DNA of 64,000 bases from an uncultured Bacteroidales bacterium. Lineage in GTDB: Bacteria > Bacteroidota > Bacteroidia > Bacteroidales > Muribaculaceae. The first letter of the stretch is position 1; each line of letters begins with the position of its first letter. The stretch spans positions 62,001 to 126,000 of the forward strand of contig CACYVC010000005.1 in assembly GCA_902777835.1 (NCBI GenBank), written 5' to 3'. The position numbers were made by a program, and so were the translations under genes. The notes under the pieces were generated by a model that saw nothing but the letters and a program-made list of their open reading frames with translations, made no database searches and was not told where the DNA came from. Below, piece by piece: positions 3,673-63,904 of this stretch.

Positions 3673-3693
3673 ACTTACTACTTAACACTTACT
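3673..3693. repeat. 7-nt repeat array (ACTTAAC family) overlapping the 3' end of the 3678 gene
   Basis: Three contiguous heptamers of the ACTTACT/ACTTAAC type. On the coding strand they supply the last codons (V-V-S-V-K) and the TAA stop of the adjacent gene. Confidence 0.75.
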
Positions 3694-4724
3694 ACCGTGT
3701 TAATAAGGCTCCTGTTCAACTTCTCTATGTCGGTGGGATTATCACAACCATCGAGATAGTCAAGCATCTGCTGCTGCGACGTTTTGTCAAAGAACTCCAG
3801 CATGCCACGAGTAACTGGGCGCATCGAGAGCACTGTCCAGCGGTCGTTACGGTCTAAATAGGGACTGCGTATCCAGTGGAGTGTGAATTGCGTGTCGCGG
3901 AATTTGGAGTAATAGGCATCAAGCTCCTCGTCGTAGGGCTTATTGAGCTCCACGGCGAGATTGCCTTGAACATCTTCAATCCACCAGATGATAGGGCCGT
4001 GTTGTGAGCCGTGGCCTCGATAGCCGTTGGTGCCACCATCTATTGATATGGTGCCAGCTCCTTTCACACGCTCTTTCACAAAAACCAGCTTCAGTTGCAT
4101 GCTGTTATCATCATTTTTGCGATAACCATTTATCTCATAATCACTGCCAGGATTCACACGCTTCCATTGGTCTTTGGTTTTATGTATGAACCCAAATTCG
4201 GTCACTGCATCGCTGTCATTGGCCCACACCCCGGCAAACATGTCTTGCATATCACCGTTTTCTGCTTCTTTACGTGAATAACTATTGTGCTCCTCACATT
4301 TGAGCAGCACATCGTGCACCTGGCCATTCTTGTCCTGGAACACAATCATGTCCCATCGCCCAGCCACAAGATGATGAACGGTGAAAGCTGGATGGTTTAT
4401 CACAACGGGCTTGCCATCAATCAATTTTACCTTATATATATTATTGCCATCATCCCAGTTCCGTGTATCTTCAAGCAAGAATCCCACATGGTCGGGGGCA
4501 CCCTGCTCGTTATTAAACGTTTTAATGCGACAATGATTCATTCCGTAGCGCCACTCTGCACTATAGTTCGGCTCGAAGATGTCATTAGAAGCCTGCTCCA
4601 GCGGCAGCAACGCATCGGCCATTATGGCTTTAAGCTCCTCCTCGCATTCGCGTTCAGTTTTCCTGCGGGCATCAACAGTGAGCACGCAGCAAGCCAGTAG
4701 CACAATAGTCAACAACGTCTTCAT
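3678..4724 (-). CDS. Secreted protein of unknown function, paralog B
   Basis: A 348-aa protein of unrecognised family, paralogous to the downstream 2448-3647 gene. The signal peptide is MKTLLTIVLLACCVLTVDA, followed by RRKTERE. Shared landmarks: KAIMADALLPLEQASNDIFE near the N-terminus, AGRWDMIVF in the middle, IRSPYLDRNDRWTVLSM, RPVTRGML, and a closing PTDIEKLNRSLINT. It lacks the basic tail of paralog A. Its final residues VVSVK and stop lie inside a 7-nt repeat array, so the original C-terminus may have been replaced. The 208-bp upstream gap holds other 7-nt arrays and AT-rich sequence. Confidence 0.82.
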   Translation of the reverse strand: MKTLLTIVLLACCVLTVDARRKTERECEEELKAIMADALLPLEQASNDIFEPNYSAEWRYGMNHCRIKTFNNEQGAPDHVGFLLEDTRNWDDGNNIYKVKLIDGKPVVINHPAFTVHHLVAGRWDMIVFQDKNGQVHDVLLKCEEHNSYSRKEAENGDMQDMFAGVWANDSDAVTEFGFIHKTKDQWKRVNPGSDYEINGYRKNDDNSMQLKLVFVKERVKGAGTISIDGGTNGYRGHGSQHGPIIWWIEDVQGNLAVELNKPYDEELDAYYSKFRDTQFTLHWIRSPYLDRNDRWTVLSMRPVTRGMLEFFDKTSQQQMLDYLDGCDNPTDIEKLNRSLINTVVSVK

Positions 4725-4844
4725 AACGGCACAGTTTTCTAGTTAGATTGCAAAGATAGCAAATAGTTTACTCTTTTCCACATAATAAAACAAAAAAACA
4801 AACCGCCACTCCGATTTTCACGAAATGGCAGTCCTTTAGAAGTT

Positions 4845-4930
4845 ATCAGTTTTCAGTTGTCAGTTTTCAGTTAACAGAAAAAACTGTGAACTATGAACTG
4901 TGAACTATGAACTGTGAACTATGAACTATA
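4845..4930. repeat. 7-nt repeat arrays (CAGTTTT and GAACTAT words) between pnp and the secreted paralogs
   Basis: About four units of the CAGTTTT/TTCAGTT type are followed by seven units alternating GAACTGT and GAACTAT, all at exact 7-nt spacing. The array stops within a few bases of the pnp stop codon (4933-4935). Confidence 0.85.
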
Positions 4931-4932
4931 AA

Positions 4933-7257
4933 TTAGTTCCTGTCCTCGTAGCTCTGGTCGTTGCGGTCGTCGCGGCGACGGTCGTTGTTGCGGTTGTCGC
5001 GACGTGGACCACGGTTGTCGTTGCGGCGGGGACCACGATTGTCGTTATGGCGTGGGGCATTACCACCATTGCCATTGCGTGGACCATTGCCGTTGCCGCG
5101 TGGACGGTTGCCACCGTTGCCACCACGACGCTCCTCATAACCCTCAGGCTTCTCTTGAAGAGCACGCATCGAGAGGCGGTACTTGCCAGTCTTCTTGTCA
5201 ATCTCGATGAGTTTCACAGTCACTTCATCGCCCTCGTGCAGACCGCTAGCCTCCATGTCGGCAAGACGCTCCCAGCTTATCTCGCTGATGTGAAGCAAAC
5301 CTTCCTTGCCAGGCATAAACTCAACAAAAGCACCAAACTCAAGGATGCTCTTGATGGGGCCTGTGTAGATGGTTCCCTCCTCGGGCACTGCGATGATAGC
5401 CTTGATGCGCTCAACGGCAGCCTCGATGCTGTCTTTGTTGGCAGCCGAGATTTCGATCTCTCCCTTGCCGTCGATCTCATCGATAGTAATTACGGCGCCA
5501 GTGTCCTCCTGGATGCCTTGGATAACCTCGCCACCCTTGCCAATGATAGCACCGATGAACTCTTTGTCAACAGTCATTGCCACGATGCGTGGAACGTGTG
5601 GCTTGTAATCCTCACGAGGCTCAGGAATTGTCTCGTTGATGATATTAAGAATGTGGAGGCGACCTTCACGAGCCTGGTTCAGAGCTTGCTCCAGAATCTC
5701 ATAAGGCAGACCGTCGCACTTAATATCCATCTGAGTGGCGGTGATGCCGTTCACAGTACCAGTAACCTTGAAGTCCATGTCACCGAGGTGGTCCTCGTCG
5801 CCAAGGATGTCGCTCAGCACGGCGTGCTTAACATTGCCCTCATCGCTGATGAGACCCATAGCAATACCTGCCACTGGGCGTTTCATCTTAACACCAGCGT
5901 CGAGCAGCGCCAAGGTGCCACCGCACACTGTTGCCATCGACGATGAGCCATTACTCTCGAGGATGTCGCTCACGATGCGGCAAGTATAAGGGAAGTCATC
6001 GGGGAACATGCGCTTGAGAGCGCGGTGTGCCAAGTTGCCATGACCTATCTCGCGACGGCTCACGCCACGTGGTGCCCGTGCCTCGCCAGTAGAGAATGCT
6101 GGGAAGTTGTAGTGGAGCAAGAAGCGCTCGTTGCGACGAGTAAGAACGTCGTCAATGAGCTTCTCGTCGAGCTTAGTGCCCAAGGTCACTGTTGCAAGCG
6201 ACTGAGTCTCGCCACGGGTGAAGACTGCGCTTCCGTGAGGACCTGGCACATAGTCGGTCTCGCACCAGATGGGACGGATGTCGGTGGTCTTGCGACCATC
6301 CATGCGGATGCCCTCGTCGAGGATGACGCGGCGCACTGCATCGCGCTGCACGTCGTGGAAGTAGCGATTAATCATTGGAGTCTTCTCCTCACGCTCCTCC
6401 TCGGGAATGGTCTCGATGAAGTCCTCGAGAATCTTGTCGAAGCTGTCGTTGCGCCAGTGTTTATCGGGGTTGCCAGCCTTAGCGATGTCGTAGCAGGGCT
6501 GATAGCACTCCTTGCGCACGCGCTCCTTGATTTCCTCGTCGTCAACTTCGTGGCAATACTCACGCTTAACGACACCGAGCTCAGCAGCGAGCTCCTTCTG
6601 AGCCACACACATAGGCTTGATAGCGTCGTGCGCGAACTTCAGAGCTGCGATAAGGTCTTCTTCTTGAACTTCGTCCATCTCACCCTCCACCATCATAATA
6701 TTGTCGTAAGTAGCACCTACTACCAATTCCATGTCAGCGTTTTCGAGTTGTTCGAAGGTGGGGTTGATAACGAAGTTGCCGTCAATGCGTGCCACGCGCA
6801 CCTCACTGATAGGCTCCTCAAAGGGGATATCACTAACAGCGATAGCGGCACTAGCAGCGAGGCCAGCGAGAGCGTCGGGACAGTCGGCGCCATCGGCCGA
6901 GAACATCAAGATGTGGACGATAGTGTTGGCATGATAGTTCGAAGGGAACAATGGCCTAAGCACGCGGTCCACGAGGCGTGCTGTCAAGATTTCGTAGTCG
7001 CTGGCGCGGCCTTCACGCTTGGTGAAGCCACCAGGGAAACGTCCAAAAGAAGAATATTTCTCCTTATATTCAACTGTGAGGGGCATAAAGTCGGCGCCCT
7101 CTTCGGCATCCTTCGCCGAAACAACGGTCGCTAGCAACATGGTGTTGTTGAAGCGCAATTCAACTGCTCCATCGGCCTGCTTGGCAAGCTTTCCTGTCTC
7201 AAGGGTGATCTCACGTCCGTCACCCAACACGATGGTTTTCTTAGTAGGTGTTAACAT
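4933..7257 (-). CDS. pnp: Polyribonucleotide nucleotidyltransferase (PNPase)
   Basis: Phosphorolytic 3'-to-5' exoribonuclease of mRNA turnover, trimeric in known members. Domains in order: first RNase PH domain (about 1-230), an alpha-helical linker, second RNase PH domain with [13 protein letters not shown] (about 320-545), KH domain with the GxxG loop [13 protein letters not shown] (about 555-620), and S1 domain with [20 protein letters not shown] (about 630-700). The last 65 or so residues are a low-complexity tail of R, G, N, D and P with repeated RGPRR and NDNRG words, absent from the E. coli enzyme; it may be an RNA-binding disordered region. At 774 aa it is slightly long for the family because of this tail. 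The ATG at 7257 matches the family start ([20 protein letters not shown]). Confidence 0.97.
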
Positions 7258-7415
7258 CTAAAATAATATTATATAATATAAAAACTGCTTTCTGCTTTAT
7301 TTCCGCTTTTTCTGCTTTGAAAATTGCAGGATTTCTAAAAAATCGTGCAAAGGTACGAAAAAGTTTTCAATTATCAGTAAATCAGCAACAAGTTTTTTTC
7401 AACAGCCCTTTAAAA

Positions 7416-7478
7416 CAAGAAAGACAAGAAAGATCTAGTGATTCTAGAATTTCTAGAACATCTAGAGATTCTAGAAAT
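7416..7478. repeat. 9-nt tandem repeat array (CAAGAAAGA and TCTAGnnnn units)
   Basis: Seven contiguous 9-mers: two identical CAAGAAAGA units, then five units beginning TCTAG with CTAG at 7435, 7444, 7453, 7462 and 7471. The array sits between pnp and the terminator of the first giant surface-protein gene. Confidence 0.88.
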
Positions 7479-26668: not shown

Positions 26669-27853
26669 TTACTCTACAAAGAGTACCAACCCTTTCAAGT
26701 ACTCGCCTTCGGGGTGGTAGATGTTGATTGGGTGGTCGGCGGGCTGGGTGAGCTGGTGCAGGATGCGCACTTTGCGGCGGCTCTGGGCTGCTGCGGTGAA
26801 GACAGCCACGCGGAACTGCTCTTTGCTCACCGCCTGCGAACATGAGAAAGTAAACAGCACTCCCCCACTCTGTATCTTACTCAACGCCTTGGCATTTAGA
26901 CGGCGGTAGCCAATGAGTGCGTTCTTGAGGGCACTCTTGTGCTTAGCAAATGCTGGTGGGTCGAGGATAATAAGGTCGTAAGCGTCACGCTCCATGCGGT
27001 CGAGGTAATCGAAGGCATCCTCAGCAAATGCTTTGTGGCGCTCGTCACCAGGGTAGTTAAGCTCCACGTTGCGCTCTGTGAGCATCACAGCCTTACCCGA
27101 ACTGTCAACTGAGTGAACCAATTTGGCGCCACCACGCATGGCATAGAACGAAAAACCTCCAGTGTAGCAGAACATATTGAGCACACGGCGGTCACGGCAG
27201 TAGCGCTCCACTAAGGCGCGGTTCTCGCGCTGGTCAACGAAGAAGCCAGTCTTCTGCCCACGCAGCCAATCCACATGGAACTTAAGGCTGTTCTCCATCG
27301 CCACATCGGTGTCGAACTCGCCAATGAGGTACTGGTTCTCAGGATCAAGATGGGCCTTGTAGGGCAACGTTGTCTCGCTCTTGTAATATACATTAATTAT
27401 ATTAGCGCCAGGCAGGTCAACAAGCGCCTGCGCGATAACCTTGCGGGCAAAATGCATTCCCGGCGAGTGGGCCTGAATAACTGCTGTGGAACCATATACG
27501 TCAACCACAAGTCCTGGCAGGAAGTCGCCCTCACCATGCACGAGGCGGAACGAGTTGTTGTCGGGGCGCATGAGTCCAAGTGCCTGGCGCACATGCCACG
27601 CCTGCTCAAGGCGGTCGCGATAGAATGCCTCGTCGATAGCGGTGTCACCCCACGCGAGGATGCGCACCATGATGCTGCCCACCTGGTAATGGCCGTTGCC
27701 AATGTGAGTGCCGTCACTACCGAAGACCGACACCAAGTCGCCTTCCTCTATCGTCTCGTCGGCATGGGCTATAGCCCCCGAGAACACCCAAGGATGAAAC
27801 CGCTTGAGCGACTCCTCCTTGCCACGCCGCAGGGTTATCTTTTTGTAGTTCAT
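26669..27853 (-). CDS. rlmI: Class I SAM-dependent rRNA methyltransferase, RlmI-like
   Basis: Predicted 23S rRNA cytosine-C5 methyltransferase (RlmI/RlmK/RlmL-type, m5C1962 in E. coli). An N-terminal PUA-like domain (about 1-75; RFHPWVFSGAI, EEGDLVSVF) is followed by a Rossmann methyltransferase domain with the SAM-binding region VLNMFCYTGGFSFYA, the acidic VHSVDSS, the motif LDPPAFAKHK and the catalytic-type cysteine in FTFSCSQ. The length of 394 aa is normal. The ATG at 27853 and the next codons (M-N-Y) are formed by the last units of a 7-nt AACTATG repeat array; no alternative start gives a better N-terminus. rseP lies upstream on the same strand across a gap made mostly of repeats. Confidence 0.92.
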   Translation of the reverse strand: MNYKKITLRRGKEESLKRFHPWVFSGAIAHADETIEEGDLVSVFGSDGTHIGNGHYQVGSIMVRILAWGDTAIDEAFYRDRLEQAWHVRQALGLMRPDNNSFRLVHGEGDFLPGLVVDVYGSTAVIQAHSPGMHFARKVIAQALVDLPGANIINVYYKSETTLPYKAHLDPENQYLIGEFDTDVAMENSLKFHVDWLRGQKTGFFVDQRENRALVERYCRDRRVLNMFCYTGGFSFYAMRGGAKLVHSVDSSGKAVMLTERNVELNYPGDERHKAFAEDAFDYLDRMERDAYDLIILDPPAFAKHKSALKNALIGYRRLNAKALSKIQSGGVLFTFSCSQAVSKEQFRVAVFTAAAQSRRKVRILHQLTQPADHPINIYHPEGEYLKGLVLFVE

Positions 27854-27984
27854 AGTTTATAGTTCACAGTTCATAGTTTTCAGTTTTTCTAGATATTCTA
27901 GAAGTTCTAGAGGATCTAGATTATTGCGCTAAAGGCACACTTTGTCCTCACTTAACACTTAAAACTTTACACTTATCACTTACT
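27846..27984. repeat. Composite of three repeat arrays filling the rseP-rlmI gap
   Basis: Left to right: about five 7-mers of the AGTTCAT type (27846-27885), four 9-mers with CTAG at 27889, 27898, 27907 and 27916, a short unique stretch, then five 7-mers of the ACTTAAC type (27950-27984). The left array contains the start codon of rlmI and the right one the stop codon of rseP. Confidence 0.88.
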
Positions 27985-38092: not shown

Positions 38093-38113
38093 AGATGTAA
38101 GATGGAAGATGTA
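38093..38113. repeat. 7-nt repeat array (AGATGTA)
   Basis: Three contiguous units, AGATGTA, AGATGGA, AGATGTA, in the divergent argS-transporter gap. Looser CAGTTTT/ACTGATA-type heptamers continue to about 38195. Confidence 0.6.
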
Positions 38114-38204
38114 AGAAATCAGTTTCCTATTATCAGTTTTTTTGTGATTTTGAATATTTGACCGAAAACTGACAACTAATTACTGATATCTGAAATCTTT
38201 TTAC

Positions 38205-39960: not shown

Positions 39961-39999
39961 AACAAGGAGGTAAGTTAATGAATTTAAACACTAAATGTC

Positions 40000-40034
40000 A
40001 TTATGCATTTTGCATTATGAATTATGCATTAGAT
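40000..40034. repeat. 7-nt repeat array (ATTATGC)
   Basis: Five units in a row of the ATTATGC type (with ATTTTGC, ATTATGA, ATTAGAT variants), ending three bases before the ATG of the MarC gene. Confidence 0.82.
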
Positions 40035-41983: not shown

Positions 41984-42040
41984 CATTCTTATAGAAGAGA
42001 TTGCAATGCTTGAAATCATTGCACTGTCTTCGATAAACAA

Positions 42041-42096
42041 CGATAAACGACCAACGATAAACGATAAACGATAAACGACCAACGATAAACGATAAA
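42041..42096. repeat. 7-nt repeat array (CGATAAA)
   Basis: Eight contiguous heptamers: six exact CGATAAA and two identical CGACCAA variants at units 2 and 6. Another CGATAAA lies three bases to the left. The array ends five bases before the ispF start codon. Confidence 0.92.
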
Positions 42097-42101
42097 CGAA
42101 T

Positions 42102-42578
42102 ATGCGCATAGGATACGGCTTCGACGTTCACCGCCTGGTAGAAGGCAGAGAGTTATGGATTGGTGGCGTGAAAATCGACCACGACAAGGGACTGCTGGGA
42201 CATAGCGATGCCGATGTGGCAATTCATGCCCTTTGCGACGCGCTGCTCGGTGCAGCAGCTCTGCGCGACATAGGCTATCACTTCCCCGACAGCGACCCAC
42301 AATACAAGGGAATCGACAGTCGCAAACTCCTGCGTGAAGTGATGCGTCTGCTAGGCGAGAAAGGCTACACGCTGGGCAACTGCGATATCACCATCTGCGC
42401 CGAGCAGCCCAAGATGAACCCGCACATCCCAGCCATGCAGCAGCAGCTTGCAGAGTGCATGGACTGCGACCCATCACAGGTGTCCATCAAAGCCACTACC
42501 ACCGAGCGCCTAGGCTACACCGGCCGTGGCGAAGGCATAGCCGCCCACGCCGTAGCAATTATAATGCACAAAGCATGA
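42102..42578 (+). CDS. ispF: 2-C-methyl-D-erythritol 2,4-cyclodiphosphate synthase
   Basis: Forms MEcPP from CDP-ME 2-phosphate in the non-mevalonate pathway; trimeric zinc enzyme. The metal ligands D and H are in GYGFDVHRL (residues 8 and 10), the third ligand and loop in [19 protein letters not shown], then [18 protein letters not shown] and a C-terminal [20 protein letters not shown]. The length of 158 aa is normal. The last residues (IIMHKA) and the region after the stop blend into an ATTATGC-like repeat and then a 9-nt CTAG array. It converges with glpB. Confidence 0.97.
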
Positions 42579-45562: not shown

Positions 45563-45639
45563 CAACAAAAATAATCTTCCACATCGTTTTTAACCCTTTT
45601 TATTAACACTTTTCAAAAAAATCATCCTATCGGTGTCAA

Positions 45640-45770
45640 AAATGCTCACGCTCGCAAGGTATTGAGCAAACTCATGCTTTTGACTCGCTTAACCGCATTT
45701 TTAAATAAAATGCTCACGCTCGCAAGGTATTGAGCAAGCTCATACTTTTGACTCGCTTAACCGCATTTTT
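45640..45770. repeat. 68-nt-period tandem duplication
   Basis: Two copies of a roughly 63-nt unit starting AAAATGCTCACGCTCGCAAG, 68 nt apart and differing at two positions (AAACTCATGC versus AAGCTCATAC). Each unit contains the inverted pair TGCTCA/TGAGCA and ends in a T-run. Confidence 0.9.
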
Positions 45771-48203: not shown

Positions 48204-49514
48204 ATGAATATTCTTATCGTTGGAACAGGATATGCCGGGCTTGTTACTGGAGCCTGTTTTGCCGACCTCGGCGTAAATGTAACTTGTGTCGATTCTGATG
48301 CGCGAAAAATCAACTTGCTGCTCTATGGTGGTCTGCCCATCTACGAGCAAGGCCTTGAAGACATGGTAAAACGCTCGGTAGCAGCCCGAAGGCTCAACTT
48401 CACGAGCAATTTTGCCAACGTGTTCGACAATGTAGATTATGTGTTCTGTGCTGTTGACACACCACCTGCCGAGAACGGTGGCACCGACCTCACACAAGTG
48501 AAAAACACAGCAATACAGTTTGCCCAAAACATTAACAACTATGCCGTGTTTATCATCAAATCGACAGTGCCTTTGGGCACTTCCAAAAAAATCAAGCAGC
48601 TCATAAAGGAGATTCTCGACGAGCGACACGTAGATTTCGATTTCGATGTGGTATCTAACCCCGATTTCCTCACCGAAGGCAACGCCATCAAGAACTTCAT
48701 GAAACCCGACCGCATCATCCTCGGCGTGGATAACGAGCGTTCACGCAAAGCGATGGATACACTCTATCACCCACTAAAGTTCAAGTATTTCCCTGTAATA
48801 TATACCGACTCGACAACTGCCGAGATGATTAAATATGCAGCCACCTCAATGCTCGCCACTCGAGTGAGCTTTATGAACGAAATCGCCAATCTGTGCGAGA
48901 TTGTGGGAGCCGACATCAACACTGTGCGCCACGGCGTGGGTACCGACAGCCGCATAGGCTCTAAATACATCTACCCTGGTTGCGGATACGGCGGCACACT
49001 ATTTCCTAAAGACATCAACGACCTTATCAATATTGCCGAGGAAAACGGATATTCAATGGAGGTGCTTAAAGCCGTTGACAAGGTCAATACCAAGCAGAAA
49101 CATCGACTCTTTGAGAAGTTCCGCGACTTTTACGGAGGCGATATCAAGGGCAAGACAGTAGCATTGTGGGGACTCTCATTCAAGCCCAACACCGATGACA
49201 TCCGCGAGTCGCCATCAATCACCACCATCGATCTACTCCTGCAGGCGGGCTGCCACGTGCGCGTCTATGACCCAGTGGCCATGAACGCCATCAAGTTCCG
49301 CTGGAACGACATTTACTGCGCTCTCGACATCTACGATGCCGTCAATAAGGCCGACGCCGTGATGCTCGTCACCGAGTGGCGACAGTTCCGCGTGCCATCA
49401 TGGGAAAAGGTGAAAGAATCAATGAACACCCCCCTTGTCATCGACGGCCGCAACATCTACGACGGCAAAGAACTTGAAGAAAAGGGATTCAGCTACTTTT
49501 GCATTGGCAAATAA
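48204..49514 (+). CDS. ugd: UDP-glucose/GDP-mannose dehydrogenase family protein, probable UDP-glucose 6-dehydrogenase
   Basis: NAD-dependent four-electron oxidation of a nucleotide sugar to its uronic acid, precursor of surface polysaccharides. The N-terminal Rossmann motif is NILIVGTGYAGLVTGACFAD; then VVSNPDFLTEGNAIKNF, the central helix TAEMIKYAATSMLATRVSFM, and the catalytic cysteine in YPGCGYGGTLFPKD (Ugd-type). The C-terminal domain has WGLSFKPNTDDIRESPS. The length of 436 aa is normal. UDP-glucose is the likeliest substrate, but UDP-N-acetylhexosamines cannot be excluded. It is monocistronic with its own promoter, followed directly by a 7-nt repeat array. Confidence 0.92.
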   Translation: MNILIVGTGYAGLVTGACFADLGVNVTCVDSDARKINLLLYGGLPIYEQGLEDMVKRSVAARRLNFTSNFANVFDNVDYVFCAVDTPPAENGGTDLTQVKNTAIQFAQNINNYAVFIIKSTVPLGTSKKIKQLIKEILDERHVDFDFDVVSNPDFLTEGNAIKNFMKPDRIILGVDNERSRKAMDTLYHPLKFKYFPVIYTDSTTAEMIKYAATSMLATRVSFMNEIANLCEIVGADINTVRHGVGTDSRIGSKYIYPGCGYGGTLFPKDINDLINIAEENGYSMEVLKAVDKVNTKQKHRLFEKFRDFYGGDIKGKTVALWGLSFKPNTDDIRESPSITTIDLLLQAGCHVRVYDPVAMNAIKFRWNDIYCALDIYDAVNKADAVMLVTEWRQFRVPSWEKVKESMNTPLVIDGRNIYDGKELEEKGFSYFCIGK

Positions 49515-49549
49515 GTGTTAAGTGTTAAGTAGTAAGTGTTAAGTGTTAA
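49515..49549. repeat. 7-nt repeat array (GTGTTAA), left flank of the four-helix-bundle gene
   Basis: Five contiguous heptamers, four exact GTGTTAA and one GTAGTAA, starting at the base after the ugd stop codon. The word is the reverse complement of the ACTTAAC family on the other side of the pseudogene (with a shift of register). Confidence 0.92.
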
Positions 49550-49574
49550 GTCATTTTTCTTTGAAAAATAAACA

Positions 49575-49954
49575 ATGACTCGGTCTTTTATGGAACAAGA
49601 TGTCAAGCGTATTAAATCAAGAGATTTTGCACTTAGGATAATTAAATTATATCGCTTTCTAGTAGATAAAATAAAAAAGCTTTTGAGATAGGCAAACAGA
49701 TTTTACGGTGTGGAACATCTATAGGTGCAAATGTTGCAGAAGCTGAATGTTCTGAAAGTGATAGTGACTTTGTCCATAAACTCACAATTGCCCTTAAAGA
49801 AGCTAATGAAACAGAGTTTTGGTTGGATTTGTTATGGAGGTCAGACCTGATATCAACACAACAATATGAATCTCTTAATGAAGATTGCGTCGAATTAATA
49901 AAGATATTAAAGTCTATTATTAACTCAATGAAGCAAAAGAAGAAAAAGCCTTAA
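49575..49954 (+). pseudogene. Four-helix-bundle protein (23S rRNA intervening-sequence type), frameshifted
   Basis: The frame from ATG 49575 reads MTRSFMEQDVKRIKSRDFAL then RIIKLYRFLVDKIKK and stops at TGA. In a second frame the family sequence goes on: AFEIGKQILRCGTSIGANVA, then EAECSESDSDFVHKLTIALK, EANETEFWLDLLWRSDLIST and the C-terminal IKILKSIINSMKQKKKKP, ending TAA at 49952-49954. One A is missing, probably from the A-run at 49672-49678. The family comprises small bundles encoded in rRNA intervening sequences and as free-standing genes, related to Avd of diversity-generating retroelements. It sits between inverted 7-nt repeat arrays, next to no rRNA gene. Too short and broken to be seen as one ORF. 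Confidence 0.88.
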
Positions 49955-49970
49955 TTTTTAAGGCTTTTTT
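49943..49970. terminator. Bidirectional intrinsic terminator between the four-helix-bundle gene and rluD
   Basis: AAAAAGCCTTAA and TTAAGGCTTTTTT pair around a few T; the A and T runs make it usable from both sides. It overlaps the last codons of the pseudogene and precedes the rluD 3' repeat. Confidence 0.88.
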
Positions 49971-50028
49971 ACTTAACACTTTACACTTAAAACTTAAAAC
50001 TTTACACTTAACACTTAACACTTAAAAC
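49971..50028. repeat. 7-nt repeat array (ACTTAAC), right flank of the four-helix-bundle gene
   Basis: Eight contiguous heptamers of ACTTAAC, ACTTAAA and ACTTTAC. They encode the last residues (about V-L-S-V-K-C) and stop of rluD on the minus strand. Confidence 0.9.
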
Positions 50029-51108
50029 AAACTCTTCCCATCGCTTTATTAGTCCTGCCATGTCAGGTGGCAATTCGCTGTCGAAATCCATCTGCTGGCC
50101 TGTTGTGGGGTGGACGAAGCCTAACGTCTTGGCATGAAGGGCTTGTCGTGGACACAACTTAAAGCAATTATGGATAAACTGAGTGTAGCTCGACGAGGTG
50201 TTGCCGCGCAGTATCTTGTCGCCACCATAGCGCTCGTCATTGAAGAGCGGATGCCCTATGTGGCGCATGTGCACCCTTATCTGATGAGTGCGGCCTGTCT
50301 CGAGTTGGCACTGCACCACTGCCACATGGTTTAGGTTCTCAATGGTGTGATAGTGAGTGACGGCATGCTTGCCCTGATCACCTTCAGGGAACACCGCCAT
50401 CTGCAAGCGATCGCGCAAGCTGCGCCCAATGTTGCCCTCGATGGTTCCGTCAAGTTCCTTCATAGCGCCCCACACCACTGCGATGTACTGTCGCTTGGTT
50501 GTCTTGTTGAAAAACTGCAAACCAAGCGACGTCTTGGCATTAGGCGTCTTTGCGACAACAAGCAGGCCGCTAGTGTCCTTGTCGATGCGGTGCACCAGTC
50601 CCATGCGCGGGTCGGTGACATCATAGTCAGGATTGTCCTTGAAGTGCCAAGCGAGAGCATTGACCAGCGTGCCGTCGTAATTTCCATGCCCTGGATGCAC
50701 ACACATCCCGGCAGGCTTGTTCACCACTAGCAGGTCATCATCTTCATAGACAATATTAAGGGGAATGTCTTGAGCAATTATCTCGTTCTCATAACGCGGA
50801 CGGTCCATCACCACCGATATCTCGTCGCCGGGATGCACACGGTAGTTGCTCTTAACAGGGCGGCCGTTCACACGAATGCACTGCGCCTCGGCGGCGTTCT
50901 GAATTCGGTTGCGTGATGTGCCCTTGATGCGCTCAACCAAGTACTTGTCGATGCGCAGCAACACGTGACCTGGCTCCACCACATAGTGGTAGTGCTCCCA
51001 GTAGTCACGTCCGTTCTCAGTAAAATCGGGATCGGAGAAGTCACTCTGAATCTCTAGCCCAGAGTCATCTATCAAATCCTCGTAATCGGCATTCATTGCA
51101 AAAAACAT
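50008..51108 (-). CDS. rluD: RluA family 23S rRNA pseudouridine synthase, RluD-like
   Basis: Isomerises uridines in helix 69 of 23S rRNA if truly RluD (assignment by family and architecture). An S4 RNA-binding domain (about 50-110; LLRIDKYLVERIKGTSRNRI) precedes the catalytic domain with MGLVHRIDKDTSGLLVVAK, where the Asp in HRIDKDTSG is the nucleophile, and QLETGRTHQIRVHMRHIGHP. The length of 366 aa is normal with an acidic N-terminal extension. ATG 51108 or ATG 51096 could be the start. The PASTA gene lies 40 bp upstream. The C-terminal VLSVKC comes from a repeat array. Confidence 0.94.
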   Translation of the reverse strand: MFFAMNADYEDLIDDSGLEIQSDFSDPDFTENGRDYWEHYHYVVEPGHVLLRIDKYLVERIKGTSRNRIQNAAEAQCIRVNGRPVKSNYRVHPGDEISVVMDRPRYENEIIAQDIPLNIVYEDDDLLVVNKPAGMCVHPGHGNYDGTLVNALAWHFKDNPDYDVTDPRMGLVHRIDKDTSGLLVVAKTPNAKTSLGLQFFNKTTKRQYIAVVWGAMKELDGTIEGNIGRSLRDRLQMAVFPEGDQGKHAVTHYHTIENLNHVAVVQCQLETGRTHQIRVHMRHIGHPLFNDERYGGDKILRGNTSSSYTQFIHNCFKLCPRQALHAKTLGFVHPTTGQQMDFDSELPPDMAGLIKRWEEFVLSVKC

Positions 51109-51804: not shown

Positions 51805-51833
51805 CAGTTATCAGGTGTCAGTTGGGCGCAGCC

Positions 51834-51861
51834 ACTTAACACTTAAAACTTGAAACTTAAA
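51834..51861. repeat. 7-nt repeat array (ACTTAAC)
   Basis: Four contiguous units, ACTTAAC, ACTTAAA, ACTTGAA, ACTTAAA, ten bases beyond the TPR-gene stop. A few looser CAGTTAT units follow before the PASTA gene (51803-51823). Confidence 0.82.
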
Positions 51862-51871
51862 AATTTAACTC

Positions 51872-53476
51872 TTATCGCTCCTGGAAATTGAGTTGCGACT
51901 GGTTGATGAGCATGTTGAACGTGGGCTCGCTACGCAACGGAGCAAGGTTCACATAGGGAGCCTCGTTAATCTTGATATCATAGAGTCCACCATAGCCATT
52001 AGCGAGGCACGACTCAAGATATTTCATGGCTTGAGCCTTATTGCCCATGGCAGCATGCAAAGCAGCAGCATAGTAGTAAGACTCTCCACCAGTAGCTGAT
52101 GTCTCTTTGATTTTTTGCTCAGCCCATGCGGCAGCTTCACTATCACGACCTAACTCATGCAGAGCAAAACCACGCAGCGAAGTGACATCGTCATCGGGTA
52201 AACTGAGCACCTTCTGGAAGTCGGTAGTAGCAGCTGATGCATTCTTCAGGTGGCTCTTATTTAGCCATCCACGCAGCATGAGCAACTCGGTATTCTCAGG
52301 CTCGGCAGCAACAGCCTTGTCAAGAAGTGGAAGCGCCTCTTTATACTTCTTTTGCTCGATGAGCAGTCGTGCCTTCTCCTTCAGTGCTGAAACATTGTTG
52401 GGGTCAATCACCAAGGCTTGGTCAAGAGTGTTGATAGCAGTGGTGAAATTGTTGCCCTTGCCTTGACGGCGCTCTATCAAGCTACGCTGCACATAACCCT
52501 CTGGAAGAGTGGGATCGCTAGCAATAGCTTTGTTGGCATAAATATATGCCTGGTCGTAGTCGCCAAGCTGGTACAGGCATTTAGCCACATCATTATAGAT
52601 AGAAGGATATTCTAGCAGATTGTTGTCGGTAATAGCCTTGAGATCGCGCAACGCTTGACCATAGTGGTTATACTTGAGTGCAATGGCCGAGCACACACGA
52701 TAGAAAATACCCACACGAGGGTTGTCGTCGGTAACGCCGCGCAGAGTAGCTATCACGTCGTCGTAGTGGTTATCGGCAAGATCAAAGATGCGGCTAATCG
52801 ACTCACCATTGTCATCGGTAGAACTCATAGCAATGAGATAGGTTTCGCAGGCATCACGGTACTTACCGAGTTGCTCCTGAACGTGGGCACGATTCAAATA
52901 AACCTGAGGCTCAGCAGGGAATATCCCTACAGCCTGGTTCACCCAGTTCATTGCTTCTTCTGAATTGCCCTTATCAGCCTCTATGCAAGCGAGGCCATAC
53001 ATCGCGTCGAAGTTGCGTGGCACACGTTGCAAAATAGTCTTAAACTGGGCCGCAGCAGTTTCGAAGTCACCTTTAGCGTAAGCAATCTTACCCTTCATAT
53101 CCACCCATGCGAGGCTGGCAGGATCGATAGTGGAAGCCTTATCAACATCGGCAAGGGCTGCGTCATAGTTTCTTCTTAACTCATAAAGCTTTGCGCGCAG
53201 CATATAAGCGTCAAAGAGCAGTTCAGTCTCTTTAGCAGGAGCCAATTGAATAGTACGGTCCACATCGTTCAATGCAGCATCGTAGTTTCCATTGAAATAA
53301 TGCTGATTACTACGCATGAAAAGGGTGTTGTAATCGTTAGGATTTTTGGCGATATAATCGTCATAAACCTTCATCACCGCCTGGGTGATTTTGTCTTCGC
53401 CCTGAGCGGCAACTTGAAAGATAGTGCCCGAAACAAGCACAAGTGCTACAAGCACTAAAAATTTCTTGATTTTCAT
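51872..53476 (-). CDS. Tetratricopeptide repeat protein
   Basis: Exported TPR protein with a signal peptide (MKIKKFLVLVALVLVSGTIF, then QVAAQ). Nearly the whole chain (about 30-500) consists of TPR units, such as YNTLFMRSNQHYFNGNYDAA, LAWVDMKGKIAYAKGDFETA and YPSIYNDVAKCLYQLGDYDQ. No enzymatic domain is seen. It probably acts as a periplasmic scaffold; the partner is unknown. The length is 534 aa. kdsA ends 24 bp upstream of the start, and the PASTA gene follows, so all may be one transcript. Confidence 0.88.
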   Translation of the reverse strand: MKIKKFLVLVALVLVSGTIFQVAAQGEDKITQAVMKVYDDYIAKNPNDYNTLFMRSNQHYFNGNYDAALNDVDRTIQLAPAKETELLFDAYMLRAKLYELRRNYDAALADVDKASTIDPASLAWVDMKGKIAYAKGDFETAAAQFKTILQRVPRNFDAMYGLACIEADKGNSEEAMNWVNQAVGIFPAEPQVYLNRAHVQEQLGKYRDACETYLIAMSSTDDNGESISRIFDLADNHYDDVIATLRGVTDDNPRVGIFYRVCSAIALKYNHYGQALRDLKAITDNNLLEYPSIYNDVAKCLYQLGDYDQAYIYANKAIASDPTLPEGYVQRSLIERRQGKGNNFTTAINTLDQALVIDPNNVSALKEKARLLIEQKKYKEALPLLDKAVAAEPENTELLMLRGWLNKSHLKNASAATTDFQKVLSLPDDDVTSLRGFALHELGRDSEAAAWAEQKIKETSATGGESYYYAAALHAAMGNKAQAMKYLESCLANGYGGLYDIKINEAPYVNLAPLRSEPTFNMLINQSQLNFQER

Positions 53477-54312: not shown

Positions 54313-54360
54313 TTTATTCTTCTAAAGAAGGAGTTAAACTATATCACTTACGTCCTCTAC

Positions 54361-54395
54361 ACTTATCACTTAATACTTACTACTTAACACTTAAT
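54361..54395. repeat. 7-nt repeat array (ACTTAAC) overlapping the rsmE 3' end
   Basis: Five contiguous units (ACTTATC, ACTTAAT, ACTTACT, ACTTAAC, ACTTAAT). The last two encode I-K-C and the stop codon of rsmE. Confidence 0.88.
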
Positions 54396-55094
54396 GACAT
54401 GCATCGTTGCCACTGCCATTAGGGCGGCAGTCTCGGTGCGCAGGCGACTCTCGCCCAAGGTCACTGGCACAAAACCAGCTTTCAATGCAGCCTCTACCTC
54501 CTGCGGGTCGAAGTCGCCTTCGGGACCAATCAACACCACTGCGTCGCGACTAGAATCATAAACTTGCGCCAGCGATTTGCGCTCATCGCGTGGCAATGAC
54601 TCGTCGCAGTAGGCAATGAAACGCTGAGCATCGCTATTCTCGGCGAGGAAGTCCTCGATGGGTGTGAGCTCGTCGAGTTGTGGCAACTGTGCCTTGAGCG
54701 ACTGCTTCATGGCTGCTACTATTATCTTGTGTAACCGCTCAGTTTTCAGCACCTTGCGCTCGCTGTGACGGCATAGCAGCGGTGTGAAGCGATCTACACC
54801 CATCTCGGTGCATTTCTCGGCCATCCACTCGATGCGGTCGAGGTTCTTGGTGGGCGCTACAGCTATCATTATCTTGCTGCCCCAATGCGGCGGGCAAGAC
54901 TCCTGAGAGATGATTTCAACCCCACAATGCTTGGCGTGAGCCATTGCAATGCGGCAGTTATATAGCATGCCAGCGCCATCAATCACCTCGATTTCGTCGC
55001 CCTCGACAAGCCTCAACACTCGCACGCAGTGGCGAGACTCCTCCTCAGGAAGAGCAAGCGTAGCAGCTATGTCGGGGGCGAAAAATCGATGCAT
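54384..55094 (-). CDS. rsmE: 16S rRNA (uracil(1498)-N(3))-methyltransferase
   Basis: SPOUT-class methyltransferase adding m3U1498 to 16S rRNA. The N-terminal PUA-like part (MHRFFAPDIAATLALPEEES, RHCVRVLR) is followed by the knotted SAM domain with ALVLIGPEGDFD-type sequence (VVLIGPEGDFDPQEVEAALK) and the C-terminal VTLGESRLRTETAALMA. The length of 236 aa is normal. The final K-C and stop derive from the overlapping 7-nt repeats. It lies upstream of kdsA and downstream of a nucleoside permease. Confidence 0.95.
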   Translation of the reverse strand: MHRFFAPDIAATLALPEEESRHCVRVLRLVEGDEIEVIDGAGMLYNCRIAMAHAKHCGVEIISQESCPPHWGSKIMIAVAPTKNLDRIEWMAEKCTEMGVDRFTPLLCRHSERKVLKTERLHKIIVAAMKQSLKAQLPQLDELTPIEDFLAENSDAQRFIAYCDESLPRDERKSLAQVYDSSRDAVVLIGPEGDFDPQEVEAALKAGFVPVTLGESRLRTETAALMAVATMHVIKC

Positions 55095-55106: not shown

Positions 55107-55136
55107 AAATGCATAATGCTCAATGCATAATGCACA
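55107..55136. repeat. 7-nt repeat array (ATAATGC)
   Basis: About four units (AAATGCATAATGC..., with TCAATGC and ATAATGC) just upstream of the rsmE start codon. Confidence 0.75.
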
Positions 55137-55156
55137 ATTATAATGAACTCAAAATG

Positions 55157-57112: not shown

Positions 57113-57147
57113 ACTTAAAACTTAATACTTACTACTTAACACTTAAA
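57113..57147. repeat. 7-nt repeat array (ACTTAAC) at the mnmA 3' end
   Basis: Five contiguous units (ACTTAAA, ACTTAAT, ACTTACT, ACTTAAC, ACTTAAA). The last unit contains the mnmA stop codon. Confidence 0.88.
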
Positions 57148-58210
57148 GAGTTATCACTCCACTGCCGTAACATAGGTGCTGTTCTTTATCGTAGATTACT
57201 GCAAACTGCCCTGGTGCAATGCCTTGGATATCCTCATCACTCTCAATGAGCCACTGGTTGCCATCAACGTGTGAAATATGCCCCTTGGCAAAGTGCGGAG
57301 TGTGACGGTTCTTGAAAGTAATTTCGTGAGTGCCACCACTCCCCTGCCACGGGTTGCCGCTGATGAAGTGCATCTCATCGAGATGTATCTCACGACCATA
57401 TTGCTTGCTTGTGCCATAGCCGTTGCTCACATATATGGCGTTGTCCATGATGTTTTTCTTTACCACATACCAAGGACCGCCACTTAGTCCCAAACCCTTA
57501 CGCTGGCCTATGGTGTGGAACCAGTATCCATTGTGCTCGCCCAGTTTGCGACCAGTCTCAATCTCGATGATGGGCCCCTTTTTCACACCCAAATGGCGTC
57601 GTATGAAGTCGTTATAGTTAATCTGACCCAGAAAGCAGATGCCTTGGCTGTCTTTGCGGCTTGCGTTGGGAAGCTTCACTTGCTGAGCAATCTCACGCAC
57701 ACGCGCCTTGGGCATCGACCCAATGGGGAAGATAAGGTGCTTGAGCTGGTCGTAGGTAATCTGGGCCAGGAAATCGGTCTGATCCTTTACTGCATCGGCT
57801 GCTGTGGCAAGATATTTGGTACCATCAATCTCACAGGTGGTGGCATAGTGACCAGTAGCTGTTAAGTCAAAGTCCTTGCCCCATCGCTGCTCAAAATACC
57901 CAAACTTAATCATGCGGTTGCACATCATGTCGGGGTTAGGAGTGAGACCTGCCTTGACGGTGCGCAGAGCATATTCCATCACATTGTCCCAATACTCCTC
58001 GTGAAGCGACACCACTTCAAGAGGCAGACCATAGCGGTGAGCAATGAGGTTGCACATCTCAATGTCTTCCTCGGCACTGCAGTCGCCCTCGTCGTTGTCC
58101 ATGCCAATGCGTATGTAGAACAACTGCAAGTCATGCTGAGCCTGCTCCACAAGCTCATGCACAACTACTGCGCTGTCAACTCCACCCGATACAAGAACCG
58201 CTATATTCAT
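57143..58210 (-). CDS. mnmA: tRNA-specific 2-thiouridylase MnmA
   Basis: Thiolates U34 of tRNA-Lys, -Glu and -Gln. The PP-loop ATPase motif [16 protein letters not shown] is at the N-terminus. The first catalytic cysteine is in [13 protein letters not shown] and the second, which carries the persulfide, in [12 protein letters not shown]. The C-terminal beta-barrel (about 280-355) binds tRNA. The length of 355 aa is normal. The end GVITL is followed by TAA provided by a repeat array. Confidence 0.95.
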
Positions 58211-58240
58211 ATTTTAGCTTTAGTTGTACGTGTTATAACC

Positions 58241-58275
58241 ACTTAAAACTTAACACTTACTACTTAACACTTAGT
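58241..58275. repeat. 7-nt repeat array (ACTTAAC)
   Basis: Five contiguous units, two bases beyond the stop codon of the DoxX gene and about 30 bp before the mnmA start. Confidence 0.88.
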
Positions 58276-58277
58276 TA

Positions 58278-58772
58278 TCACGCTTTCTCTAGCACCTCGC
58301 TCTCCTCGTCATCTTTCTCACTAATAGTGTGGATAGCAATTAGGTAGTCGAGTGAAATCTTGCCAGGACCAGCGAGCAACATATACACAAAAATTCCCAA
58401 GAACATGATGGGATAACCTGGCTCAAAGAAGAACATCTGCTGAGCCGCACCCGCCACGTTAGTGGCACTAGGCATTATCGTCTCGGCGTAAATCATCACA
58501 CCTATCGAAGGCAGTAGTGCAAAACGCGTGAGTAGTCCTAAAATGATAAACACTGAGCACACGATTTCTATAACCACTATTGCCGCCATAGCAGTCTCAC
58601 TGAGCCCCATTGCAGTGTGGGTAAACTCGTTGAGGTGCATCATCTGTCTTACTCCAAGCTGCAGGAACATCAAACCTGTGAACAGACGCAGGAACAAGCG
58701 CGACAAGTTACTGTAGGTGTGGCCCACATTTATCATGAACAGGTTCTGAAACCACTTTGGAATCTTTGTCAT
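58278..58772 (-). CDS. DoxX family membrane protein
   Basis: Small four-helix membrane protein of the DoxX/DoxD-like family, of uncertain role (quinol oxidase-associated in archaea, redox-stress related in mycobacteria). Four hydrophobic segments: LFTGLMFLQLGVRQMM, AAIVVIEIVCSVFIILGLLT, FALLPSIGVMIYAETIM and YPIMFLGIFVYMLLAGPGKI. Charged tail IHTISEKDDEESEVLEKA. The length of 164 aa is normal. The DUF5106 gene lies 34 bp upstream on the same strand. Confidence 0.87.
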   Translation of the reverse strand: MTKIPKWFQNLFMINVGHTYSNLSRLFLRLFTGLMFLQLGVRQMMHLNEFTHTAMGLSETAMAAIVVIEIVCSVFIILGLLTRFALLPSIGVMIYAETIMPSATNVAGAAQQMFFFEPGYPIMFLGIFVYMLLAGPGKISLDYLIAIHTISEKDDEESEVLEKA

Positions 58773-61355: not shown

Positions 61356-61401
61356 TTTAAATCAATACTCATTAACGACCTGTTTTCGTTTTTCTAACCA
61401 C

Positions 61402-62214: not shown

Positions 62215-62246
62215 TGTGAAGTGTATAGTTATCTTTAATTTAATTG

Positions 62247-62254
62247 CAAAGGTA
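62247..62254 (-). promoter_or_regulatory. -7 element of the glycogen-synthase-domain/DUF4270 operon
   Basis: TACCTTTG on the minus strand, 33 bp before the ATG at 62214. No good -33 box is visible. Confidence 0.5.
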
Positions 62255-62344
62255 GCATTTTTTCTCCTAATAAAGAAATTAATCGCCAAATGCACAAAGT
62301 TTTTAACTTAATTTTAATCACAACACATCACAAGGAATACTTTT

Positions 62345-62383
62345 TTAAGAAAAAACGAGCAAAGTATAAACCCTGCTCGTTTT
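62345..62383 (-). terminator. Intrinsic terminator of asnS
   Basis: On the minus strand AAAACGAGCA and TGCTCGTTTT pair around a 12-nt loop, with the T-run TTTTTTCTT after it. It lies 33 nt past the asnS stop. Confidence 0.85.
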
Positions 62384-62415
62384 CGCTTTTATTGATATAG
62401 TAACAAATACTTTCT

Positions 62416-63810
62416 TTAGAACTCGCAATTATTGGGAGTACGGGGGAAGGCGATGACGTCGCGTATGTTGGCCATGCCAGTCACAAATAGTACAAGACGC
62501 TCAAAGCCAAGGCCGAAGCCACTGTGAGGCACAGTGCCATACTTGCGTGTGTCGAGATACCACCACATGTCTTTCATAGGTATTCCAAGCTCATTGATGC
62601 GGGTCAAGAGCTTATCATAATCGGCTTCACGCTCTGAGCCACCGATGATTTCGCCAATCTGGGGGAACAGCACGTCCATAGCGCGTACCGTCTTGCCATC
62701 GTCGTTCTGTTTCATGTAGAACGCCTTGATTTCCTTAGGATAATCGGTAAGGATTACAGGACGCTTGAAGTGCTTCTCCACCAAGTAACGCTCATGCTCG
62801 CTCTGCAAGTCAACGCCCCATTTCACTGGGAACTCAAACTTGGCACCACTCTCCTCAAGAATCTTGATGCCCTCGGTATATGTCAAGCGCACAAACTCAT
62901 CTTTGAGCACGCTATTGAGGCGCTCAATAAGGGTGTTGTCATACATCTTGTTCAGGAACTCGATGTCGTCCTGGCAATGGTCAAGAGCATACTTCACGCA
63001 ATATTTGATGAATTCCTCTGCGAGGTCCATATTGTCATTGATGTCGTAGAATGCCATCTCGGGTTCAATCATCCAGAACTCAGCCAAGTGACGGGGAGTG
63101 TTGCTGTTCTCAGCGCGGAAAGTGGGACCAAAGGTGTAGATGGCACCTAGCGAGGTGGCGCCAAGCTCACCCTCGAGCTGACCACTCACTGTGAGACTTG
63201 TCATCTTGCCAAAGAAATCCTTGCTGTAATCAATCTTGCCGTCCTCGGTGCGGGGCATGTCGTTCACGTCGAGGGTAGTAACTTGGAACATCTCACCTGC
63301 TCCCTCGGCATCACTTGAGGTGATGAGAGGAGTGTGAAGGTAGAAGAACCCCTTATCGTTGAAGAACTTGTGAATGGCAAATGCCAAATGGTGACGGATG
63401 CGGAAGATGGCACCAAAGGTGTTGGTGCGCATGCGCAAGTGTCCTATTTCACGCAGGAACTCTAGAGTGTGGCCCTTCTTCTGCAAAGGATACTCCTCGG
63501 CCGATGCAGTGCCATACACCTCAATCTCCTCGGCCTGAACCTCATAGCTCTGACCCTTGCCCATCGAAGCAACTAGCGTACCTATCACGCACAGGCTGGA
63601 GCCAGTGGTGATGGGTTTGAGCTGCTCATCGGTGAATTTCTCAAGATTTACAACGATTTGAAGGTTGTTGATAGTGGAGCCATCGTTAAGTGCGATAAAC
63701 TGCACGTGCTTGTTGCCACGACGGGTCCTAACCCAACCTTTCACACACACTTGTTGGCCTTCGAGTTCGCCACTGAAGACGTCAACAATTTTTGTTCGTT
63801 TTATTGCCAT
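62416..63810 (-). CDS. asnS: Asparaginyl-tRNA synthetase
   Basis: Class IIb aminoacyl-tRNA synthetase charging tRNA-Asn. An N-terminal OB-fold anticodon-binding domain (about 15-115; [19 protein letters not shown]) is followed by the catalytic domain: motif 1 region around [20 protein letters not shown], motif 2 with [20 protein letters not shown], and motif 3 [16 protein letters not shown]. The C-terminal [15 protein letters not shown] is typical. The length of 464 aa is normal. It is preceded by an rluB-like gene on the same strand across a gap with CACTAAT repeats. Confidence 0.97.
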
Positions 63811-63876
63811 AATAAATTATATCTTTTAAATGCTATGAGGCGCTTCACTGTTCCCAAATCGGGGCGCGAAGCACCT

Positions 63877-63904
63877 CACTAATCACTAATCTCTAATCCC
63901 AAAT
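63877..63904. repeat. 7-nt repeat array (CACTAAT)
   Basis: Four contiguous units, CACTAAT, CACTAAT, CTCTAAT, CCCAAAT, between asnS and the rluB-like gene. Confidence 0.8.

Follow-up and report, generated by a model that had tools for sequence, protein, structure and literature searches.

Polar heptamer repeat arrays with a four-nucleotide core at the gene borders of a rumen Muribaculaceae bacterium

How can the gaps between the genes of one bacterium carry short tandem repeats in many different words and yet almost always of one length? The question is raised by a stretch of 64,000 nucleotides (nt), hereafter the window, from an uncultured Bacteroidales bacterium of the rumen gut (GenBank assembly GCA_902777835.1, 2.89 Mb in 52 contigs; contig CACYVC010000005.1, positions 62,001 to 126,000 of the forward strand), for which a first-pass annotation had listed arrays of degenerate heptamers in at least a dozen intergenic gaps. 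We find that the heptamer unit is a near-invariant 4-nt core (AGTT, AAGT, CGTT) joined to a variable 3-nt spacer, and that the arrays hug gene borders in one orientation, mostly with the G/T-rich strand running outward from the coding sequence (CDS). The tRNA_Me_trans-family protein of the window is 90-96% identical to proteins of fourteen metagenome-assembled genomes (MAGs), mostly ruminant, that are labelled Muribaculaceae, Prevotellaceae, Porphyromonadaceae or Bacteroidales, with Candidatus Sodaliphilus MAGs at 79%; going by these labels, the host is treated here as a Sodaliphilus-like Muribaculaceae bacterium.

The period is a property of intergenic DNA. In an unselected sample of the genome, composed of the window and 400 kb of stretches not picked for arrays (464 kb in total, the only source of the array densities given here), intergenic identity reaches 0.329 at lag 7, where lags 5-6 and 8-13 give 0.28-0.30, and it peaks again at lags 14 (0.311) and 21 (0.310); in coding DNA lag 7 (0.249) equals the other lags that are not multiples of three. 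Segment scoring at a score of at least 9 finds 74 period-7 arrays in 42.8 kb of intergenic and 10 in 421 kb of coding DNA; each other period from 4 to 13 yields 0-7 intergenic arrays, and period 14 yields 29. Gaps of at least 20 nt, 254 in number, hold 71 period-7 arrays, distributed over 52 of them, where 30 dinucleotide shuffles gave a mean of 1.27 and a maximum of 3. The arrays have a GC content of 31% and, extrapolated from the 464 kb, number about 460 in the whole genome. The lag-7 excess that the first-pass annotation expected between genes, and not within them, is thus found in this genome, and the arrays it listed stand at their coordinates, all but that at 3673 as period-7 calls of Tandem Repeats Finder (TRF); its statement that the period is always seven needs amending, since seven dominates but rows of period 9 (TCTAGA plus three variable bases) also occur. 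The arrays of the window, with the genes they adjoin, are as follows, each word being read on the strand given unless otherwise stated.

3673: about three ACTT-core units, below the score threshold.
4841..4872, plus strand: AGTTNNN array in CAGTTTT words, the far side of a mirrored pair (TRF 4841-4872).
4882..4935, minus strand: AGTTCAY array (AACTGTG and AACTATG alternating on the plus strand), abutting the stop of gene 4933-7257 (RNase PH, KH and S1 domains); it is also a period-14 repeat of 3.3 copies with 100% match (TRF 4882-4929).
27846..27887, plus strand: AGTTNNN array abutting the start of open reading frame (ORF) 26669-27853 (TRF 27846-27878).
27887..27920, no strand assigned: period-9 TCTAGA+NNN array in mid-gap, with a palindromic core and without polarity.
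27949..27982, minus strand: TTAAGTG array (ACTTAAC on the plus strand), holding the stop of M50 peptidase gene 27980-29500 (TRF).
38093..38116, plus strand: AGATGTA array of about 3 units, away from borders (TRF).
39999..40031, minus strand: AATGCAT-type array, 5 nt upstream of ORF 40037-40606 (TRF).
42039..42099, minus strand: CGTTTAT array (AACGATA on the plus strand) of 8.7 copies, 2 nt upstream of YgbB-family gene 42102-42578 (TRF).
49512..49551, plus strand: TAAGTGT array, starting with the stop codon of UDP-glucose/GDP-mannose dehydrogenase-family gene 48204-49514 (TRF).
49971..50028, minus strand: TTAAGTG array (ACTTAAC on the plus strand) of about 8 units, entering RNA pseudouridylate synthase-family gene 50008-51108 by 21 nt and containing its stop (TRF 49971-50025, 7.9 copies).
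51833..51868, minus strand: TTAAGTG array adjoining the stop of TPR gene 51872-53476, its other end meeting GGCGCAGCC (TRF 51834-51862).
54360..54394, minus strand: TTAAGTG array containing the stop of RNA methyltransferase-family gene 54384-55094 (TRF 54359-54394).
55108..55138, plus strand: AATGCAT array in a gap that has related words in several relatives (TRF).
57113..57146, minus strand: TTAAGTG array; its first TAA serves as the stop of tRNA_Me_trans-family gene 57143-58210 (TRF 57113-57147).
58241..58273, minus strand: TTAAGTG array adjoining the stop of DoxX-family gene 58278-58772 (TRF 58240-58273).
63876..63908, plus strand: CACTAAT array (TRF 63876-63898).

The words do differ, as first described, but they are not unrelated, many being one 4-nt core with three variable bases. 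Drawn from all 192 arrays, 20 of which lie mostly within ORFs, the 56 ACTT arrays (252 units) keep each core position in 246-251 units and vary at positions 5-7, and the 56 AGTT arrays (296 units) keep the core in 285-289, admit any base at position 5, have A or T at position 6 in 291 of the 296 units, and have A at position 7 in 12. Because picking arrays by their core biases the alignment of units, one half of each array served to set phase and consensus and the other half to test them. Mismatch in the 109 arrays so treated was 23-37% in the spacer; within the core it was 9% at position 1, 14% at position 2 and 5-6% at the TT. Mismatches also cluster in columns when no alignment is chosen, the sum of squares in 122 arrays being 2103 against a null maximum of 1699 and the invariant columns 535 against a null maximum of 464. 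This refutes uniform decay over the seven positions, the simple form of a neutral account in which the arrays would be microsatellite-like products of ordinary slippage under no special rule. Heptanucleotides are the commonest long class of simple sequence repeat in most genomes, and a 7-nt polymerase contact has been proposed (Mrazek, 2007, as cited in the part of PMC4679880 consulted here), which would suit such an account; the unevenness of mutations across columns, the recurrence of words and the border polarity described below speak against it, and we give it hardly any credence. Long arrays at locus L009 (18035-18143 and 19703-19814) shift their word stepwise, from GTGGAAG through GGGAACT and GACAACT to GTGAACT, and keep the 7-nt register.

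The same words recur between loci. There are 32 canonical words among 64 arrays (the TAACTGA class accounts for 3 of the 64, and AACTGAT arrays occur in this genome), and same-word pairs between loci number 90, against 5.8 by chance with a maximum of 21, by which independent slippage of arbitrary local words is rejected. Runs of units in the ACTT family are shared between loci no more than under unit shuffling, which argues against copying of whole arrays; a single dispersed repeat is rejected by this and by the many words. The earlier judgement that a shared process is at work, and not one dispersed repeat, holds up well on these grounds, together with the one main period and the other dialects of congeners, the test of unit order being confined to the ACTT family.

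Placement follows gene borders of both kinds. Arrays lie within 6 nt of a CDS in 94 of 167 cases, where uniform placement in their own gaps predicts 39 (maximum 53), and in 40 of 73 in the unselected sample (16.7 predicted, maximum 25); the larger set comes from an enlarged sample of the same genome, picked at contigs with ACTTAAC matches. The median distance is 2 nt at stop borders and 6 nt at start borders, the looser approach to starts being expected if leader function limits it. Around the tRNA and tmRNA genes no array was listed at up to 60 nt, a result without bearing on borders of that kind. Orientation also follows a rule. For the core-oriented count, 119 arrays were kept in which at least 70% of units had a listed core (167 without that condition); the expected gene-facing end is the nearer one in 50 of 51 ACTT/AAGT and in 40 of 46 AGTT/AACT arrays, whichever the border, start or stop. 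Read outward from the CDS, either border type shows (TAAGTGT)n, (AGTTCAT)n, (AGTTATC)n and similar rows. A count blind to the core, of the 114 arrays within 10 nt of a CDS, gives 98 with a keto-rich (G+T) outward strand and 14 with an amino-rich one; the corresponding ratios are 18:6 from 11 to 40 nt, 8:12 from 41 to 100 nt and 4:4 farther out. Stop-border arrays have an outward keto fraction of 0.58 and start-border arrays of 0.66; in array-free gaps the figures are 0.47 and 0.52. When ORFs shorter than 150 amino acids (aa) are disregarded, the border arrays of the unselected 464 kb comprise 45 keto-rich and 4 amino-rich ones (n=49) and include co-directional, convergent and divergent gaps. 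Loci of other genomes of the genus picked by the ACTT/AGTT pattern give 35 keto-rich and 5 amino-rich arrays (n=42, 19 genomes, duplicates removed), or 26 and 5 (n=32) with ORFs of at least 150 aa. The polarity rule is well supported for AGTT and AAGT cores, and less so for other cores.

Since the G/T-rich strand runs outward from the borders, gaps occupied on both sides become mirror images: among 35 gaps with at least two arrays, 26 are mirror-symmetric in the outward sense, 1 is reversed and 8 are same-sided, with core pairs AGTT/AAGT in 9, AGTT/AGTT in 4, AAGT/AAGT in 3 and other words in the rest. A hairpin joining the two sides of a gap is unlikely to be the purpose, as the sides often carry different cores. 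A signal at the level of RNA within the mRNA is likewise unlikely, as the words at start borders are the reverse complements of those at stop borders and the NNTT strand of the core is the sense strand in 39 of 98 co-directional arrays; polarity that is equal at starts and stops, and in all three gap orientations, is not tied to one mRNA strand.

Mirror pairs with outward G/T-rich strands resemble healed ends, and so bring to mind dispersal by a mobile element of the kind of repetitive extragenic palindromes (REPs) and their RAYT transposases, or templated extension, by a reverse transcriptase or an enzyme like telomerase, of the 3' end pointing away from the gene. This genome holds 350 matches to the ACTTAAC pattern with at most 3 mismatches (many of them overlapping) and 64 to the reversed pattern, Y1 transposase genes are present, and several TTAAGTG arrays run, on the side of the gap, into a GC-rich palindrome, all of which would suit such an origin. 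Templated 3' addition fits the mirror geometry, but neither candidate enzyme family appears to track the arrays: RVT_1 matches are absent from the array-bearing (and incomplete) genomes G007, G009, G027 and G030, which speaks against a reverse transcriptase as the writer, and Y1_Tnp is found in 38 of 41 genomes, irrespective of how many arrays they carry. Given that loci of the ACTT family share unit order no more than shuffling predicts, and that no target duplications were noticed by eye in the gaps read, where no systematic test was made, mobile or templated origins appear improbable. The palindromes (GCGCCTACGGCGC), or else GGCTGCGCC, stand directly after the gap-side end of several TTAAGTG arrays and may be a separate REP-like family; in this genome such composites lie, for example, at the following positions.

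L155, 17692: TTAAGTG array with a GC-rich palindrome or GGCTGCGCC.
L158, 15453: the same combination.
L160, 12689: the same combination.
Window, 51805-51833: the same combination.

Stop codons were the function first suggested for the arrays, three heptamers sufficing to place one stop in all three frames. All-frame closure is mostly arithmetic, however, because random gap heptamers made tandem close as often (28.0 +/- 3.7 of 64) as the arrays do (27 on the plus and 32 on the minus strand). Perfect tandems of the observed consensus words close in 43 and 43 of 64, a figure swayed by the repeated ACTTAAC, and distinct words closing on either strand number 29 of 34 in the unselected and 39 of 52 in the enlarged sample, with a null mean of 21.5 of 32 (range 14-29). 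In co-directional gaps the sense strand is closed in 25 of 50 arrays and the antisense strand in 21 of 50. For border arrays the enlarged, ACTTAAC-enriched sample does show a sense bias (sense only 35, antisense only 15, p=0.007), but the unselected sample shows 17 and 11 (p=0.35), and 19 of 106 border arrays close neither strand. Locally the stops are put to use: of the 34 TAAGT-type arrays found at stop borders, 15 supply the gene with its stop by an in-phase TAA, and two genes of the window (50008-51108 and 54384-55094) end in an array-encoded Lys-Cys-stop where their relatives end differently, the end of the second gene being longer there. Many arrays nevertheless stand upstream of starts, and the polarity rule does not follow from stops, so that selection of the arrays as cassettes for ending translation seems very improbable. 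Of the earlier proposal, the local service of an array TAA as gene stop survives and a special closure of frames is mostly not supported; translation termination is best explained as a side effect of AT-rich heptamers, used opportunistically.

Comparison with relatives, one genome per species, separates what is kept from what drifts. The AGTTNWB pattern (three units plus core) occurs in 31 of 37 genus genomes, this one included, against 13 matches in total across the 37 for the reversed control, and the spacers of its rows differ among species by eye. ACTTAAC rows occur in 17 of 61 genomes, again including this one, and in 0 of 24 order-level genomes; their reversed control, AATTCAC, is itself a heptamer row and is abundant in G034, G016, G010, G028 and G046, and its abundance in some congeners and one order-level genome indicates that other heptamer dialects exist. 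The lag-7 excess, strong in this genome, is weaker in its nearest relatives; loci pooled from the remaining congeners, from other Muribaculaceae or from other Bacteroidales show no visible excess. Intergenic period-7 arrays with other words number 9, 14, 7 and 7 in short samples of G034, G016, G030 and G032, respectively. In G030, near-identical TTAAGTG arrays (L183, L188, L200) perhaps lie in a repeated gene region and were counted once for polarity.

At orthologous borders, arrays come and go among sister species and differ in unit number. Gap 49515-50007 shares its centre and flanks with relative L022, its right-hand array having about 8 units against 2.7. The stop of the tRNA_Me_trans-family gene carries TAAGT-type arrays of varied length in the window and, by eye, in L021, L022, L023, L030 and L032, and in gap 58211-58277 several relatives have TTAAGTG at the stop border and NGTT at the start border, again in differing numbers. 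A small ORF between the two outward arrays of gap 49515-50007 looks open in L022 and, by eye, appears broken in the window by a 5-nt insertion. Within arrays of this genome, spacers two units apart agree more than shuffled ones (0.326 against 0.194 for AGTT, 0.422 against 0.335 for AAGT); in congeners the same holds for AAGT (0.440 against 0.300) and slightly for AGTT (0.379 against 0.337, reached by 95 of 1000 shuffles).

The observations to be accounted for are thus the period, core and spacer, border placement, polarity, mirror symmetry, the differences in unit number between relatives and the alternation of units. The arrays may be regarded as a family of polar gene-border heptamer repeats that would be built in place, unit by unit. 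Their writer would be short tandem duplication, through slippage of strands or repair synthesis out of alignment, adding 7 or, in particular, 14 nt at a time; the core would be needed for pairing before each further step, or would be recognised by some factor, and the spacer, free of the need to match, would drift into species dialects. Arrays reaching a gene border would be kept there in one orientation, with the G/T-rich strand outward, either because directional growth is stopped by selection at the CDS or because a border function is selected. To local tandem duplication at gene borders with a paired or recognised core we assign about an even chance; slippage as the writer, and either source of the polarity, we infer.

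Several results weigh against this account. Polarity is its least explained step, and slippage alone accounts neither for polarity nor for the same core across loci and species. The 12 CGTT arrays lack the polarity (7:5), which is even also in G016 (6:5) and in L035-059 with L082 (3:3), and genus loci not picked by pattern give 37 keto-rich and 18 amino-rich arrays (n=56), a weakening due in part to words such as AATTCAC, which have little skew; loci of other Bacteroidales divide 2:2. Genes here are crude longest-ORF calls and start borders approximate. A decay gradient along the arrays, as a sign of growth direction, was looked for and none was seen. Simple slippage, moreover, predicts identical neighbours, and in this genome neighbouring spacers agree less than shuffled ones (AGTT 0.118 against 0.192, reached in 0 of 1000 shuffles; AAGT 0.258 against 0.334, in 1 of 1000). 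Both this depletion and the lag-2 excess would result if duplication went in steps of 14 nt and identical neighbours were lost; in congeners no lag-1 depletion is found.

Selection, and not the writer, would keep core and polarity if the arrays were functional border elements, 4-nt cores at a 7-nt pitch, recognised on the DNA by a factor sensitive to their orientation, which would mark gene ends or insulate them, for instance by halting polymerases on their way out of or into the CDS. The retention of the core amid widely varying spacers, the persistence of AGTT across the genus under differing spacers, the equality of polarity at both border types and in all three gap orientations, and a like placement in Xanthomonas and Nostoc (Rehm et al., 2015; the part of PMC4692102 consulted) all agree with such elements. 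They sit less easily with several cores per genome, often different ones on the two sides of a gap, and with the absence of arrays from most gaps and their turnover at orthologous borders, and we regard them as a serious but somewhat unlikely explanation.

Rows of period 9 differ from the heptamers and are, by eye, a palindromic core of six with a spacer of three. A pattern that fixes CTAG finds 16 TCTAGA+NNN rows of at least three units in 858 kb, 3 of them in ORFs, and only 2 of the 13 intergenic rows lie within 12 nt of a CDS, where 5.8 are expected; outside the window, rows stand in gap centres at L016 (4081), L165 (9353) and L170 (14468). Relative L030 has CCGGA-type rows. The window also contains, at 45639-45770, a 68-bp tandem duplication unlike the heptamers (TRF, 96% matches, score 250), and one tRNA according to Rfam.

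Among known systems, REPs and the bacterial interspersed mosaic elements (BIMEs) composed of them are intergenic, species-specific families with mirrored pairs at gene ends, a REP being a hairpin with a guide tetranucleotide. The heptamer units differ in not being palindromic, only the period-9 TCTAGA units and some gap centres having that look. The short tandemly repeated repetitive (STRR) heptamers of heterocystous cyanobacteria, reportedly described by Mazel in 1990, are said to be tandem heptamers like these arrays, with other words; to our knowledge no polarity has been described for them. Three Nostocaceae plasmids (450 kb) show no lag-7 excess, and hold 13 intergenic period-7 arrays against 1-6 at periods 5, 6, 8, 9 and 11; their border arrays, 5 only (3 keto-rich, 2 amino-rich), are too few for polarity.

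Closer parallels come from two studies, as represented by the parts consulted here. The G-rich heptamers GGGAATC and GGGGA(C/T)T of Xanthomonas and Nostoc PCC 7120 lie "almost exclusively" nearer the 5' neighbouring ORF irrespective of ORF orientation, with 70 and 75 convergent pairs in two Xanthomonas genomes and few in Nostoc (Rehm et al., 2015; PMC4692102). Degenerate intergenic 7-nt arrays with an ORF on the 5' side of the G-rich strand and overlap with stop codons are common to both systems, and the convergent pairs of Xanthomonas correspond to the mirror rule found here, but the arrays of the present genome, in Bacteroidota, have A/T-rich words with one or two G in a typical unit, several cores side by side and a unit of core 4 and spacer 3. 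Their outward G fraction is 0.22; by composition, quadruplex formation not having been computed, they are not G-rich. The TAACTGA direct repeats of marine Beggiatoaceae, some Cyanobacteria and Bacteroidetes stand forward before starts, with one reverse set after a stop, and their three-frame stops were remarked upon (MacGregor, 2015; PMC4679880). That word is found here too, and AGTT arrays (AACT on the sense strand) likewise occupy start borders, but the Beggiatoaceae genome has essentially one exact word, related heptamers being rare, where the present one has many degenerate words with a shared core. The part consulted of PMC12699852, which surveyed short tandem repeats in 2025, yielded none of the heptamer terms sought. 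Among the matches listed in the literature searched there is no account of such arrays in Muribaculaceae, of a core-plus-spacer unit or of an A/T-rich polarity rule, though other papers may hold one. The placement of Rehm et al. (2015) recurs here with A/T-rich words; the core-plus-spacer unit, border hugging and outward polarity of such arrays are new here.

An excess of heptamers in bacterial genomes has long been known (Mazel, 1990, and Mrazek, 2007, as cited in later papers), and its role was left open in the parts consulted of MacGregor (2015) and Rehm et al. (2015). That the polarity rule seems to hold for A/T-rich repeats too suggests that quadruplexes are not its general reason. The present clade offers a sharp handle on the question, with several hundred extrapolated arrays in this one genome, several cores side by side and congeners that differ in spacer dialect, and its core and spacer, mirror symmetry and unit alternation set quantitative constraints on slippage, end repair, selection or templated addition. 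A wider and distinctly tentative reading, the odds of which are lowered by the weaker polarity of genus loci unpicked by core, is that several phyla might share an unnamed gene-border system of a short polar core, a 7-nt pitch, a free 3-nt spacer and species dialects, with non-polar 6+3 palindromic rows at gap centres, whose rows would be written or kept outward from both ends of a CDS whatever the direction of transcription. If true, such a system would imply a dedicated writer or reader of gene borders at the level of DNA.

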